A stretch of DNA of 64,000 nt from Rhizomicrobium palustre (GTDB lineage Bacteria; Pseudomonadota; Alphaproteobacteria; Micropepsales; Micropepsaceae). Under the pieces are notes generated by a model, which was given only the letters and a program-made list of their open reading frames with translations, searched no databases and was not told the origin of the DNA. Shown here piece after piece: positions 17,459-32,066 of this stretch. Made by a program: the position numbers and the translations under genes. Numbering within the stretch: position 1 is the first letter of the stretch; the number at the start of each line of letters is the position of its first letter. Location: the NCBI RefSeq assembly GCF_011761565.1, contig NZ_JAASRM010000001.1, forward strand, positions 2,170,139 through 2,234,138. The letters run 5' to 3'.

Positions 17459-17547
17459 CGTCATGGCCGGGCTCGACCCGGCCATCCATCGTGAAGTCTG
17501 GATTGGCGCGCGCACGCTGTTGCTACGCGCCAAGGGCGGCCATGACG
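17459..17547. repeat. Palindromic intergenic repeat, CGTCATGGCC family (copy 1)
   Basis: Outer arms CGTCATGGCC/GGCCATGACG enclose an inner ATGGCCGGG/CCCGGCCAT hairpin. It lies between the convergent sucD and acyltransferase genes. Related copies are at 23045-23116 and 50949-51021; all lie at gene ends. Confidence 0.75.
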
Positions 17548-23157: not shown

Positions 23158-23877
23158 CTATGGCGCCCAATGCGCTAGCGCCACTTGCGTCAACGCGGCC
23201 ACCAACAGCCCCCAGCCGAAGCTCAGGAAGGTGCCGATGATGATGTATTCGGTGAGCTTACGCTGCGCCGATTCCTTCACATCGCCAAAGCGCAGGATGG
23301 ATTTGGCGGTGATGAGAAAGCCCACCCCTGCGGGCTGATTGATCAGCATCAGAAGCATTACCAGGGCACGTTCCAGACAGCCGATATAGGTGCCGCCATG
23401 GGAAAGGCCCTGAATCTCCTGGCCGATTTCAGTAACGAACGGCGCCGTGATCTTCTTGATGAGGATGGCGCCGGTATGAAGGCTTAAAATGGTTCCGGCG
23501 ATCAGGCATAAAAGGGCTTGATAGTGCGAAAGCCAATCTTGGCGCGCCCAGAAGCCATTGGCGAAAGCATCAGGATAAAGAAAGCCAAGCCCCAAGATCA
23601 CCGCCAGGTGCACGAATTGGTCGATCAGGAAACTCGCCAGCGTATCCTTTAAGACATGCACTTTCAGCGCATCCATGACGAGATGCGTACCCGCCAAAAT
23701 CGCCAGAAGCGGCCAGGGCGCTGCACCCAGAACAAGAATGGCCGCCGCGATAACAATGGCGATGTGCAGAAGAAGATAGAGCGGGTTTTTCTTTCGCCGT
23801 AACAGCCATTCACCCTGCGCCGGAAAATCCGCAATCAGATGCGCCGCGACCAGCGCCAGAAGCGTGTCCGCCATCAT
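23158..23877 (-). CDS. DUF3307 membrane protein
   Basis: A 239-residue polytopic membrane protein (about six helices). Its helices carry conserved-looking polar residues: His13-x3-Asp17-x3-Gln21, His37, His64-x3-Asp68 and Asp85-Gln86-x2-His89. Such repeated His/Asp pairs inside helices suggest a metal site or an intramembrane hydrolase rather than a simple transporter, but DUF3307 has no established activity. The ATG at 23877 overlaps the satD stop (ATGA) and lies just after GGAAGG, so translation is coupled to SatD. The longer ORF start at 23916 is rejected. Confidence 0.83.
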   Translation of the reverse strand: MMADTLLALVAAHLIADFPAQGEWLLRRKKNPLYLLLHIAIVIAAAILVLGAAPWPLLAILAGTHLVMDALKVHVLKDTLASFLIDQFVHLAVILGLGFLYPDAFANGFWARQDWLSHYQALLCLIAGTILSLHTGAILIKKITAPFVTEIGQEIQGLSHGGTYIGCLERALVMLLMLINQPAGVGFLITAKSILRFGDVKESAQRKLTEYIIIGTFLSFGWGLLVAALTQVALAHWAP

Positions 23878-24578
23878 GCGTATCCTTCCTGCCGAGGCGC
23901 TGCAATGTGCTGCCAATTCGTCCGGGCAAACAGTTCCAAGGCTTCTCGCAGTGCAGGCAGGTTGGCGCTTGAGAGAACATCCCCGACCGACTGAACGGTG
24001 ATCCCGAGATTATCGGAGATTTTCTCATAAGTCGGCATGGGGAGCAGCAGCCAAAGCCGCATTACCTCGGCTTGGCGGCGGGACCATTTGCGCGAGAGGC
24101 GGCTACAAAGGTGCAAGATGGCCGGAAACCAAAGTGCGAAGGTCTCGTCGCCGTTGTCGGACAGGGCACCCGTAAGCCGGTCGGCCCCGCTCATCTCCTC
24201 AAGCGCCCGTCCCGACAGAGTGAACGCTTCCCCGGTTGAGATGGCGGAGGTTTGCTCGATGCTCTCGATACTTCCGATGCCTATCGACGTTCTGGTTTCG
24301 GCATTGGCTTCTACAAGCAGGCTTGCCTGGATAAGCAGGGCCAAGCGCAGCGCATTGGATGGGTCGCCCAGCAGAACCTGCCAGGAATCGCCCTGAAAGA
24401 ATTCGGCGCCGCGCGTAATAGGGTCGTTACGCAGAACAAAGGCGCGAACAGTCTCGCGAACGGAGTCTTGGACGCTCTGCCGCACGCGCGCCATTGCAGC
24501 CGGCTTGAGTTTGGTCGAGCCAACTATATCGCCGGTAAGAACGGCGTGGACCTTGGGCGCGGCAGCTCTTTTGGGCAC
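23874..24578 (-). CDS. SatD-like protein: cyclase-fold domain plus C-terminal helix-turn-helix
   Basis: A 234-residue protein with a GTG start. The first ~130 residues follow the class III nucleotidyl cyclase pattern: VLTGDIVGST (Asp17), FFQGDSWQVLLGDPSNALRLALLIQ (Asp64), SIGIGSI near 99 and GEAFTLSGRALEEM near 116. Asp17 and Asp64 stand where cyclases bind metal. Residues ~166-205 (RRQAEVMRLWLLLPMPTYEKISDNLGITVQSVGDVL) look like a sigma-region-4/LuxR-type HTH. I recognise the SatD family from Gram-positive annotations, where its function is unknown. It forms a two-gene unit with DUF3307, under a promoter overlaid by palindromes. It may act as an autoregulator, a nucleotide sensor or a cyclase; this is undecided. 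Confidence 0.75.
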   Translation of the reverse strand: MPKRAAAPKVHAVLTGDIVGSTKLKPAAMARVRQSVQDSVRETVRAFVLRNDPITRGAEFFQGDSWQVLLGDPSNALRLALLIQASLLVEANAETRTSIGIGSIESIEQTSAISTGEAFTLSGRALEEMSGADRLTGALSDNGDETFALWFPAILHLCSRLSRKWSRRQAEVMRLWLLLPMPTYEKISDNLGITVQSVGDVLSSANLPALREALELFARTNWQHIAAPRQEGYA

Positions 24579-24580
24579 AT

Positions 24581-24629
24581 AATTTCAGGCAAAAACGCCT
24601 GAAATTTATATTTCAGGCGGAAATGCCTG
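24581..24629. promoter_or_regulatory. Tandem palindromic operators of the satD promoter
   Basis: Operator 1 (24581-24606): AATTTCAGGC/GCCTGAAATT, 10-bp perfect arms, 6-base spacer. Operator 2 (24614-24629): CAGGC/GCCTG, the same 6-base spacer, with the TTT of TTTCAGGC conserved on one side. The centres are 28 bp apart. Operator 2 fills the -35/-10 spacer; operator 1 covers the -10 end and the predicted start site. The layout is that of a repressor-controlled promoter. Confidence 0.75.
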
Positions 24630-24633
24630 TCAA
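24605..24633 (-). promoter_or_regulatory. Near-consensus sigma70 promoter of satD-DUF3307
   Basis: On the minus strand: TTGACA (24633-24628), 17-base spacer, TATAAA (24610-24605). The expected start is near 24598, about 20 bases before the GTG, with no clear ribosome-binding site between. Confidence 0.8.
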
Positions 24634-24648
24634 ATGGCATGCCTCAGC

Positions 24649-24676
24649 AAAAAGGCCCGGTTTCCCGGGCCTTTTT
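24649..24676. terminator. Bidirectional terminator
   Basis: A perfect 12-bp stem AAAAAGGCCCGG/CCGGGCCTTTTT with a TTTC loop. On the minus strand it ends the GH62 gene and insulates the satD promoter immediately downstream. Confidence 0.9.
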
Positions 24677-24698: not shown

Positions 24699-25751
24699 CT
24701 ATTTCTTCGCCGCGCACAAGCCGAGGTCGGGCTGTTTGGTGGCGGTCAGCAGCGACAGGCGATAGGGCAGTTTCAGGTAGTTCTTCTCGGGCGCATTGGG
24801 CTCCAGCGCCTGATAAAGGAATTGCAGCGGCTTGCAGAAATCGACTTCCGGCGTCTGGTCGGCGTTAGTGCGGATCAGCTCACCATGCGAGACGCCTTCC
24901 GAACTTGGCGCGCCGTCGAAGCGCACATTCAGCGCGCTGGCAAAGGCGTCGTCCAGCTTCGCCGCCAAGGGCTTCCATTCGCTATCAAGCTTATCCAGCG
25001 TCCAGGAGCGGAAATAGCGCCCTTTCGGCCCCATCGCTTCCACTGCGGCAAGGTATTTTTCCGTGCCTTTGATCTTATAGATCATCGCCGCTTCAAAAAG
25101 GTCCGCCTTGTTGGGCTCGGCGGCGGCGATCACCGTCTCCTTGTCATAGCCATTGGGAAAATCGGCGAGCGTCGTTTTGGAGCGGAAGATGTGGCCGTTA
25201 TCATCGGCGCCGAAAAGATAGCAATTCTTCTCGTCGCAGATGTTCCAGAAATCCAGCCAATAGCCTTTACCAATGGCGTCCTTCACCGTGTCGGGCATTT
25301 TGGAGAAGAAGGTTTTTGGCGCGCTCCACGACATCGGGTCATCGATATTGCTGGTGGTGGAATACATCGCACCATTGCCTTGATAGACGAGATACCAAAG
25401 CTTCTGCGGCGCGAAATAGAAAACCTGCGGCGCGCAATGATAGCCCGGGCCAATCTTGCTGGTGTTGAGATAGGTGATCGGCGCGTCGTTCGCCTTCGCC
25501 CAATCGGTGAAGCTCAAATAGGCCATCTCCCAGCCGCCTTTCTCCGAGGGCGTGGTGGCGAAGACATGGAATTTGCCGTTCGCGAAAACCACCGTGGGGT
25601 CCTTCAGCGCCAGCGAGGCATGGGCTGCGTCCGGCTTGGGCAGGATCAGCGGCGCGGTGGATTTCCATTGGAACTGGCCATCCTCCGCGGCGAAGGCGGG
25701 CAGGGCGGTAAGGGCGAGAAAGGCGCAACAGGCCAGGCGCGAACGGAGCAT
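24699..25751 (-). CDS. Glycoside hydrolase family 62 alpha-L-arabinofuranosidase
   Basis: A 350-residue secreted enzyme with a signal peptide (cleavage likely after AFAA, residue 22). It reads as a full GH62 domain: LKDPTVVFANGKFHVFATT with Asp51, MAYLSFTDW, GYHCAPQVFYFAPQKLWYLVYQG near 104, GYWLDFWNICD with Asp167, SKTTLADFPNG, KADLFEAAMIYKIKG with Glu220, RYFRSWTLDKLDSEW and SHGELIR. Asp51, Glu220 and Asp167 match the general base, general acid and pKa-modulating residues of the five-bladed propeller. The family removes arabinose side chains from arabinoxylan by inversion. It has no carbohydrate-binding module and no neighbouring hemicellulase genes. GH62 is known mainly from fungi and actinomycetes. 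Confidence 0.9.
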   Translation of the reverse strand: MLRSRLACCAFLALTALPAFAAEDGQFQWKSTAPLILPKPDAAHASLALKDPTVVFANGKFHVFATTPSEKGGWEMAYLSFTDWAKANDAPITYLNTSKIGPGYHCAPQVFYFAPQKLWYLVYQGNGAMYSTTSNIDDPMSWSAPKTFFSKMPDTVKDAIGKGYWLDFWNICDEKNCYLFGADDNGHIFRSKTTLADFPNGYDKETVIAAAEPNKADLFEAAMIYKIKGTEKYLAAVEAMGPKGRYFRSWTLDKLDSEWKPLAAKLDDAFASALNVRFDGAPSSEGVSHGELIRTNADQTPEVDFCKPLQFLYQALEPNAPEKNYLKLPYRLSLLTATKQPDLGLCAAKK

Positions 25752-25917: not shown

Positions 25918-26589
25918 ATGGCGCGAGGGGCCGCTTCCATTCTCCGGTCGGCCTTGGGCTCGTCGGTCTATGCCGGGCTCGTCTTTGTGGGCGCGGGCAA
26001 TGTCTCTTGGACCCGTGGCTGGATATATGCCGGGCTTTTTGTCGGCACCGCGGTCCTCGGCAGCCTGATCGTGCGTGCGAAGAACCCCGCTTTGTTGGAA
26101 GCGCGCCGCAAAACCCTTCGCAAAGACACCAAAGCTTTCGACAAGCTCTTCTACGCGCTCTTTCTGCCGCTGGTGTCGGCGCTGCCGCTGGTCGCAGGTG
26201 CAGATGCCGGGCGCGGCCACAGCATGCTGTCCTTTGTGGCGGTATATCCGGGCGTCGTGCTGCTTCTTCTCGGCGCGGCGCTCACCACCGCGGCGCTTAT
26301 GGTCAACGCCCATGCCGAAGCCTCGGTGCGCATTGGGGAGGAGCAACGGGTCATTACCACTGGGCCTTACCGCTATCTGCGGCACCCTATGTATACCGGA
26401 ACCCTTCTGGGCTTCCCGGCGGCGGCGCTGATCACCGGCTCGGCTTGGGCGTTTGTTCCTGCAGGGCTGATGAGCCTGCTCTTTGTCTGGCGCACCGCGC
26501 GTGAGGACGCGGCCTTGCATCAGGAGCTTCAAGGCTACGCCGAATACGCCAGCGAAACGCCGTACCGGCTGGTCCCAGGGATTTGGTAG
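25918..26589 (+). CDS. Isoprenylcysteine carboxyl methyltransferase-like membrane methyltransferase
   Basis: A 223-residue membrane protein with about five helices. The C-terminal half holds the ICMT/PEMT signature: ITTGPYRYLRHPMYTGTLLGF (about residues 141-161, SAM pocket) and REDAALHQELQGYAEYASETPYRLVPGIW at the end (Glu and Tyr-x-x-Tyr). In bacteria such proteins methylate small or lipidic acceptors, mostly unknown. The gene is single, converging on fliX 14 bases away. Confidence 0.85.
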   Translation: MARGAASILRSALGSSVYAGLVFVGAGNVSWTRGWIYAGLFVGTAVLGSLIVRAKNPALLEARRKTLRKDTKAFDKLFYALFLPLVSALPLVAGADAGRGHSMLSFVAVYPGVVLLLLGAALTTAALMVNAHAEASVRIGEEQRVITTGPYRYLRHPMYTGTLLGFPAAALITGSAWAFVPAGLMSLLFVWRTAREDAALHQELQGYAEYASETPYRLVPGIW

Positions 26590-27635: not shown

Positions 27636-28592
27636 TTAGCTGGCGGCCCGGCCGCGCTTGGGCTCTTCCACGCTCCACATGCCTTCGAGGTCGTAATAGT
27701 CACGCACTTCCGGGCGGAAGATATGGACGATCACGTCACCGGCATCGACCAGCACCCAATCGCCTTGCTGTGCGCCCGAAAGCGGGCGGGTGCCGTAACC
27801 AGCTTCCTTCAGACGGCGCGCGAGATGCTCGGCAATCGCGGCGACATGGCGCGAAGAGCGGCCCGAGGCCACCACGATCGCGTCACAGAGCGAGGAACGG
27901 CCATCCAGCGGGATCACGGAAATCTCTTCGGCCTTATCGTCTTCCAGCGAGGTGACGATGCGGTTGATGAGAGGGTCATCATAGGTTGGCGCGGGCAGAG
28001 CGGCTTCCACGACCGGTTCGGGCTCTGTGGCTTCAACAACCGGCTCGGGTGCAACGGCTACTGGCTCATCCGCATCCACTACCGGCGCGGGCGCCTGTTC
28101 GATCTCAGGCGCGGCCACCTCGATCGCCGGGGCTGGAGTATTCTCGGCTGCCTTCTTTTTTGCGACGGGCTTTTTCGCGACGGGTTTCTTCGGAGCAGGC
28201 GCCTTAGCGACGGGTTTCTTCGCAGCGGGCGCCTTCACGGCGGACTTCTTTGGAGCTGCCGTCTTAGCGACCGGCTTCTTCGCAGCAGGTGCCTTCGCGA
28301 TGGGCTTCTTTGGAGCTGTCGCCTTTGCGACGGGCTTCTTCGGAGCAGGCGTCCTGGCGGCTGACTTCTTCGGAGCTGTCGCCTTTGCGACGGACTTCTT
28401 GGCAGCAGGTGCCTTCGCGACGGGCTTCTTCGGAGCAGGCGTCTTGGCGACGGACTTCTTCGGAGCTGCCACCTTCGCGACAGGCTTCTTCACGCCAGCC
28501 TTTTTCGCCGTGGGCTTCTTGACGATCTTTTTCGGGGCCACTTTCTTGGCGGGCGCCTTTTCCGCGACCGCTTTCTTGGTGGTCTTCTTCAC
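27636..28592 (-). CDS. rsfS: Ribosomal silencing factor RsfS with a Lys/Ala/Pro repeat tail
   Basis: 318 residues from a GTG at 28592. The last ~110 residues are a normal RsfS domain (LINRIVTSLEDDKAEEISVIPL... to VIVHIFRPEVRDYYDLEGMW), which binds L14 of the large subunit and blocks subunit joining in starvation. RsfS proteins are usually 105-150 residues. Here a ~145-residue histone-H1-like region precedes it, with about eleven decapeptides of the KKPVAKAPAP type, then a Pro/Glu/Val acidic linker (about 150-205). The frame stays open and Lys/Ala-rich for 31 codons above the GTG, so a non-standard start (CTG 28685 or ATC 28688, after CGGAGA) is possible. Confidence 0.93.
   Translation of the reverse strand: MKKTTKKAVAEKAPAKKVAPKKIVKKPTAKKAGVKKPVAKVAAPKKSVAKTPAPKKPVAKAPAAKKSVAKATAPKKSAARTPAPKKPVAKATAPKKPIAKAPAAKKPVAKTAAPKKSAVKAPAAKKPVAKAPAPKKPVAKKPVAKKKAAENTPAPAIEVAAPEIEQAPAPVVDADEPVAVAPEPVVEATEPEPVVEAALPAPTYDDPLINRIVTSLEDDKAEEISVIPLDGRSSLCDAIVVASGRSSRHVAAIAEHLARRLKEAGYGTRPLSGAQQGDWVLVDAGDVIVHIFRPEVRDYYDLEGMWSVEEPKRGRAAS
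28160..28490 (-). repeat. 30-bp tandem repeats within rsfS
   Basis: About eleven imperfect 30-bp units encoding KK[PS][VAI]xK[ATV][PA]A[PA]. The DNA units have drifted but keep the decapeptide period. Confidence 0.8.
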
Positions 28593-29302: not shown

Positions 29303-29450
29303 CCCATCACCCCCCCCTTGCGGGGGCGAGTGGCGCCAGCGTGCGAGCGGAGAGCGAAGCGATCCGGGTGGGGGGAAGCGCTCGGTGAGAACTCCCCACC
29401 CGAAATTTGCGGAAGCAAATTTCGACCTCCCCACAAGGGGGAGGTAAAAT
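29303..29450. repeat. Two palindromic repeat units between proA and nadD
   Basis: Unit one (29303-29385) carries CCCCCCCTTGCGGGGGCGAGTGG. Unit two (29390-29450) carries CGAAATTTGC-GGAA-GCAAATTTCG between CTCCCCAC and CCTCCCCACAAGGGGGAGGT. The same CGAAATTTGC hairpin recurs at 31880-31903 inside another repeat. Confidence 0.7.
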
Positions 29451-31856: not shown

Positions 31857-32066
31857 TTACCCTCCCCTTGAGGGAGGGTCGAAATTTGCGGAAGCAAATT
31901 TCGGAGAGGGGTATGTCGTGACGAGGAAGTCTGTCTGATTTCTCAGAATAAGGCTGCGCATGTTCAGGCGCTTTGCGTCGTTATCGGCGACACGACATAC
32001 CCCTCCCCGATCCGCCGTCGCGCGCTGCGCTCGGGCGTATCGACCCTCCCTCAAGGGGAGGGTGAA
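31857..32066. repeat. Composite inverted-repeat element between obgE and proB
   Basis: The left end (31858-31920) and right end (31990-32066) are inverted copies. Both carry ACCCTCCCCTTGAGGGAGGGT then CGA at the outside and GGAGGGGTATGTCGTG at the inside (AGAGGGG on the left). The insert between these blocks differs: an AATTTGC-GGAA-GCAAATT hairpin on the left, a GC-rich CGCGCGCTGCGCTCGGGCG stretch on the right. About 70 bases of unique DNA lie between the ends. No reading frame is contained. Confidence 0.75.

Follow-up and report, generated by a model that had tools for sequence, protein, structure and literature searches.

Tandem palindromes at the promoter of a satD-DUF3307 operon as candidate autoregulatory operators

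Introduction

In the tetA-tetR region of transposon Tn10, a single promoter carries two tet operators spaced by about 30 bp, and the repressor is encoded alongside. The locus described here, from Rhizomicrobium palustre, resembles that arrangement in having two palindromes on one promoter next to the gene of a candidate regulator, SatD. It differs in three respects: the sensor domain of SatD is unrelated, the geometry of the palindromes is kept across phyla as their letters change, and arrays of up to five palindromes occur.

SatD is named after the Streptococcus mutans sat operon, and the family is represented by the profile PF16264. The R. palustre protein is like that family in domain order, motifs, gene partner and operator geometry, but falls below detection by the profile. 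A second likeness is to the class III nucleotidyl cyclases (PF00211), with which the N-terminal domain of SatD aligns across two metal-binding aspartate motifs; unlike these enzymes, SatD is small, is fused to a helix-turn-helix (HTH) domain and has no clearly recognisable later catalytic motif. A literature search returned no paper assigning a function to SatD or to its partner, DUF3307.

Results

A near-consensus promoter overlapped by two palindromes

We analysed a stretch of 64,000 nucleotides of the R. palustre genome (hereafter the window), in which satD and the DUF3307 gene form a two-gene operon on the minus strand (Table 1). Positions 24633-24605 of that strand read TTGACA-GGCATTTCCGCCTGAAA-TATAAA. 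The preliminary description of this DNA had called this the best promoter of the window, and it is indeed the sole sigma-70-like promoter matching at least 11 of 12 consensus positions on either strand of the 64 kb (spacing 16-18 bp), with a few others at 10 of 12. A standard promoter scan overlooks it because the scan demands T as the sixth base of the -10 element. Transcription is predicted to start at about 24600, and the 66 bp of the promoter region contain 39% G+C, against 60.5% for the window. The satD transcription unit looks independent, because a terminator-like hairpin parts its promoter from the upstream gene.

Table 1. Features of the satD-DUF3307 locus (positions in the window)
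Feature	Position	Strand	Remarks
DUF3307 membrane-protein gene	23158-23877	-	PF11750, E 1.5e-12; its start and the satD stop overlap in ATGA
satD-like gene	23874-24578	-	234 aa, starts with GTG; class III cyclase-like domain (invariant D17, D64) at the N-terminus, HTH at the C-terminus
Candidate operator O1	24581-24606	-	26-bp perfect palindrome containing the 20-bp unit 24584-24603; overlies the end of the -10 and the predicted start
Candidate operator O2	24612-24631	-	20 bp, GACAGGC-ATTTCC-GCCTGAA; left half has GACA in common with the -35
satD promoter	24605-24633	-	-35 TTGACA 24633-24628, 17-bp spacer, -10 TATAAA 24610-24605; 11/12 consensus match
Terminator-like hairpin	24649-24676		12-bp stem; separates the satD promoter from the GH62 gene (24699-25751)

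Two palindromes overlap this promoter, which is that of the candidate regulator's own gene, the trait of a tandem-operator autorepressor. The first, AATTTCAGGC-N6-GCCTGAAATT, is perfect over 10+10 bp and extends over the final two bases of the -10. The core of the second, CAGGC-N6-GCCTG (24614-24629), occupies the spacer and the final two bases of the -35. As had been described, the two share the same core and their core centres are 28 bp apart; together they stop 2 bp short of the GTG start codon of satD at 24578 (an overlapping ATG lies out of frame).

Because both palindromes were also listed by a terminator scan and a short hairpin forms when the predicted 5' end is folded, we considered that they might act as RNA, in a leader attenuator or a terminator. 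We rejected this reading as highly improbable. O2 lies in the spacer, ahead of the predicted start site, and so would act as DNA; the stability of the leader does not exceed that of shuffled sequences (z -0.53). Moreover, RNA hairpins would need neither a fixed centre spacing nor identical arms within a locus.

The window contains only two perfect CAGGC-N6-GCCTG cores, both at the satD promoter. The whole 4.26-Mb genome has nine, against one for the reversed-pattern control; the satD-promoter cores are the only tandem and the only non-coding ones, and each of the other seven stands alone within a long ORF. This bears on whether the palindromes could bind an unrelated regulator, encoded elsewhere, that controls satD-DUF3307 while the HTH of SatD binds something else. 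Such a regulator would be expected to have more targets. In Henriciella genomes, likewise, every pair within one mismatch of the 16-letter pattern lay, among the matches listed, at the satD locus, which also argues against it.

The window has other inverted repeats. The 24-bp palindrome CGAAATTTGCGGAAGCAAATTTCG occurs twice, at 29401-29424 and, about 2.5 kb away, at 31880-31903, and a hairpin of the type ATGGCCGGG...CCCGGCCAT recurs in three similar versions at 17463, 50953 and 50995.

SatD resembles a degenerate cyclase fused to an HTH domain

The window SatD matched none of the Pfam families at E up to 10, hence not PF16264, and an NCBIfam search gave no match. PF16264 was matched by one of five close relatives (E 0.001). 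Nevertheless, in an alignment of 56 loci that comprises window-type and PF16264-type proteins, the motifs GDIV-S and GD-x-x-Q and the C-terminal W-x-x-x-Q HTH motif are present. Residues D17, D64 and W165 of SatD are invariant. The N-terminal part carries invariant TGD and GD-x-W-Q motifs; the C-terminal part has a conserved W-T-x-x-Q region, an HTH and weak PDB matches to HTH proteins.

The N-terminal domain aligned with a class III cyclase profile in hhalign (P 5e-5, probability 64-67%), with both metal-aspartate motifs in register, whereas the C-terminal part, used as a control, did not match (P 0.6). The class III cyclase Ma1120 was among the best PDB matches of SatD, at a non-significant E of 0.28; the PF00211 profile matched neither the window SatD nor its relatives, and a weak profile match in the class search, at locus L023, is itself a cyclase-like protein. 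We hold with moderate confidence that the N-terminal domain is a degenerate relative, by homology, of the class III nucleotidyl cyclases.

The partner protein, DUF3307, had no PDB relative by sequence, and its match in PHROGs (phrog_2470) is annotated only as 'membrane protein'. Across homologues, residues H12, D16, H37, H64, D68, K71, D85 and H89 are invariant, and the motifs IG-x-x-E-R and AKS-x-L-R-F recur; the invariant residues are reminiscent of a membrane metal site, and may form one. A DUF3307-like ORF adjoins satD in most loci. The order is reversed, with that ORF ahead of satD, in seven loci, L088 included.

The promoter-palindrome layout is conserved in close homologues

The satD gene was found in 5 of 96 genomes of the host's family. 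A single-sequence protein search of genome contigs gave no SatD relatives; searching named genomes with an alignment yielded 13 loci. At L024, the nearest homologue (58% identical), both cores, the 28-bp spacing, the -35 and the -10 are as in the window, whereas the N6 letters, flanking sequence and upstream gene are all different. There, satD lies directly behind fliX; in the window, the GH62-like gene and a PEMT/ICMT-like methyltransferase gene (25918-26589) intervene. L024 also encodes a lysine/alanine/proline-rich stretch similar to the long repetitive N-terminal one of the ORF at 27636-28592 (minus strand) of the window, whose C-terminal end is RsfS-like.

The promoters of the window and of seven homologous loci (from Alphaproteobacteria MAGs, Asticcacaulis, Henriciella and one gammaproteobacterial MAG) align without gaps, with a -35 of T(T/A)GACA, a 17-bp spacer and a -10 beginning TA(T/C)A. 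In all eight, two 20-bp palindromes start at an interval of 28 bp with the -10 between them, and the first palindrome contains the GACA of the -35. The consensus of the palindromes is GACAG-N10-CTGTC, and the letters drift: in the window and its nearest relative most half-sites have changed to TTCAGGC-N6-GCCTGA, and the half-site on the -35 is still GACA. The -35 may thus hold the overlapping half-site back.

It had been suggested to search upstream of satD homologues for CAGGC-N6-GCCTG. The layout behind that suggestion stood, with two cores 28 bp apart at the nearest homologue and the same promoter-palindrome arrangement, in drifted letters, at six more distant ones. The exact string proved not to be a family motif; alone it would find one homologue only.

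A 28-29 bp pitch is shared across the SatD family

We then extended the comparison to the SatD family by adding PF16264 loci from Pseudomonadota, Bacillota and plasmids, two of them haloarchaeal; the sampled lineages were Proteobacteria, Bacillota, Gemmatimonadota and haloarchaeal plasmids. Pairs were scored on arm identity with odd centres allowed, a score that replaced one based on six outer pairs and even centres, which was too blunt for single loci. With redundancy removed at 80% protein identity and odd centres added, the best tandem pair had a spacing of 28 or 29 bp in 39 of 54 loci, against 34 of 319 control slices taken from elsewhere in the same loci (Fisher 1e-20, a p-value that is only a guide because loci of one lineage are not fully independent). 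The other 15 loci had no 28/29-bp pair by this score. Among pairs scoring at least 18.5, 31 of 32 were at 28 or 29 bp. Before these two steps, with the spacing left free between 18 and 45 bp, the best pair fell at 28 or 29 bp in 38 of 56 loci (shuffles, 7.3%). Since the rule came from visual inspection of the first loci, the Bacillota set, fetched afterwards, is the fairest test: 15 of 30 loci were at 28/29 bp where some 2-3 were expected. The tandem layout was also found at the SatD-type genes of the two archaeal loci. Viral contigs and phages, when searched, contained no SatD homologue.

The arms of the palindromes are alike inside one locus and unlike between species (TGACCC..GGGTCA in L058, AATCACA-N8-TGTGATT in L060, TTCGCC..GGCGAA in L064 and L065, and others), as expected for a local binder. 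That the geometry stays with satD in different phyla and on plasmids, although the letters do not, fits a co-inherited binder and speaks further against a regulator encoded elsewhere. The similarity of SatD proteins was correlated with that of their operators (r about 0.22-0.26, permutation p 0.0005). Co-variation of the HTH with the operator beyond that of the N-terminal domain was not significant (partial r 0.07, p 0.12); since the HTH does not rise above the N-terminal domain, co-variation does not single it out as the reader of the site. This negative result favours the elsewhere-encoded regulator and leaves SatD a putative binder, yet against the distribution of the sites we regard that explanation as quite unlikely.

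In some genomes a pair or array lies before DUF3307 instead of satD, or before both genes. A pair was found between satD and DUF3307 in L026, L028 and L030, and three copies in L029 (28-bp pitch) and L021 (29-bp pitch). The longest array seen comprises five similar palindromes in L031 (2182-2312; pitch 28, 28, 28 and 27), again between the two genes. In L088, where the DUF3307-like ORF comes first, a 28-bp pair lies upstream of that ORF; the six other loci of this order had no pair before it. The haloarchaeal plasmids L064 and L065 (1350-1474) have two 29-bp pairs upstream of satD-DUF3307, and neighbouring units start 47 bp apart.

The pairs between the genes and the doubled haloarchaeal pairs are what might be expected if SatD were an activator, or an activator-repressor, recruiting polymerase from O2. 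At the satD promoter of the window, however, O1 and O2 overlap the core elements as well as the start site, and the promoter itself already comes close to the consensus. We consider activation distinctly improbable here.

Discussion

All together, these results suggest that the site is probably the autoregulatory control region of the two-gene satD-DUF3307 operon, held off by SatD on both palindromes. SatD would most likely be a local autoregulator acting as a repressor, with DUF3307 as its target. A repressor-like layout with SatD as its natural candidate had been proposed at the outset, and both are strongly supported by the conservation of the geometry at SatD-family loci; binding by SatD and repression are what we infer, the choice of repression over activation resting on the overlap of the operators with the core promoter.

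From the combination of an HTH with a cyclase-like domain, we propose that a cyclase-derived sensor has been fused to an HTH, two dimers of which would repress their own operon. SatD would thus be a one-component regulator, dimeric, binding each 20-bp palindrome through its C-terminal HTH. Two dimers at a distance of 28 bp (28-29 bp family-wide) may touch each other and bind cooperatively. Once bound, they would cover the -35, the spacer, the -10 and the start site, keeping a near-consensus promoter off. The N-terminal domain, in which the two metal-binding aspartates are retained, would be the sensor of a ligand (that this is a nucleotide is a guess); sensing would free the promoter, and SatD and the DUF3307 membrane protein would rise together.

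An overlapping two-gene operon with putative autoregulatory operators, patchy in the host's family and found on bacterial and archaeal plasmids, also recalls toxin-antitoxin or defence modules, in which case SatD would both repress and neutralise a harmful DUF3307 membrane protein. We think this unlikely: PADLOC gave no match, phages yielded no SatD homologue, the gene order is reversible, and DUF3307 is rather large, with many invariant H, D and K residues more like those of an enzyme or transporter. Such a role would in any case be compatible with autoregulation by SatD rather than exclusive of it.

More broadly, and tentatively, SatD-DUF3307 could be a signalling module that is widespread in bacteria and archaea and moves horizontally. 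In it, a cyclase-derived nucleotide sensor with an HTH would sit on pairs or arrays of 28-29 bp pitch and, on a change in its nucleotide ligand, release a membrane enzyme or transporter, operator letters and protein being re-tuned in each lineage. In the autoregulatory reading, SatD and DUF3307, two families without known function, gain a concrete candidate role as a local switch and its target, and the 28-29 bp pitch common to bacteria and haloarchaea may serve as a signature for finding such operons.
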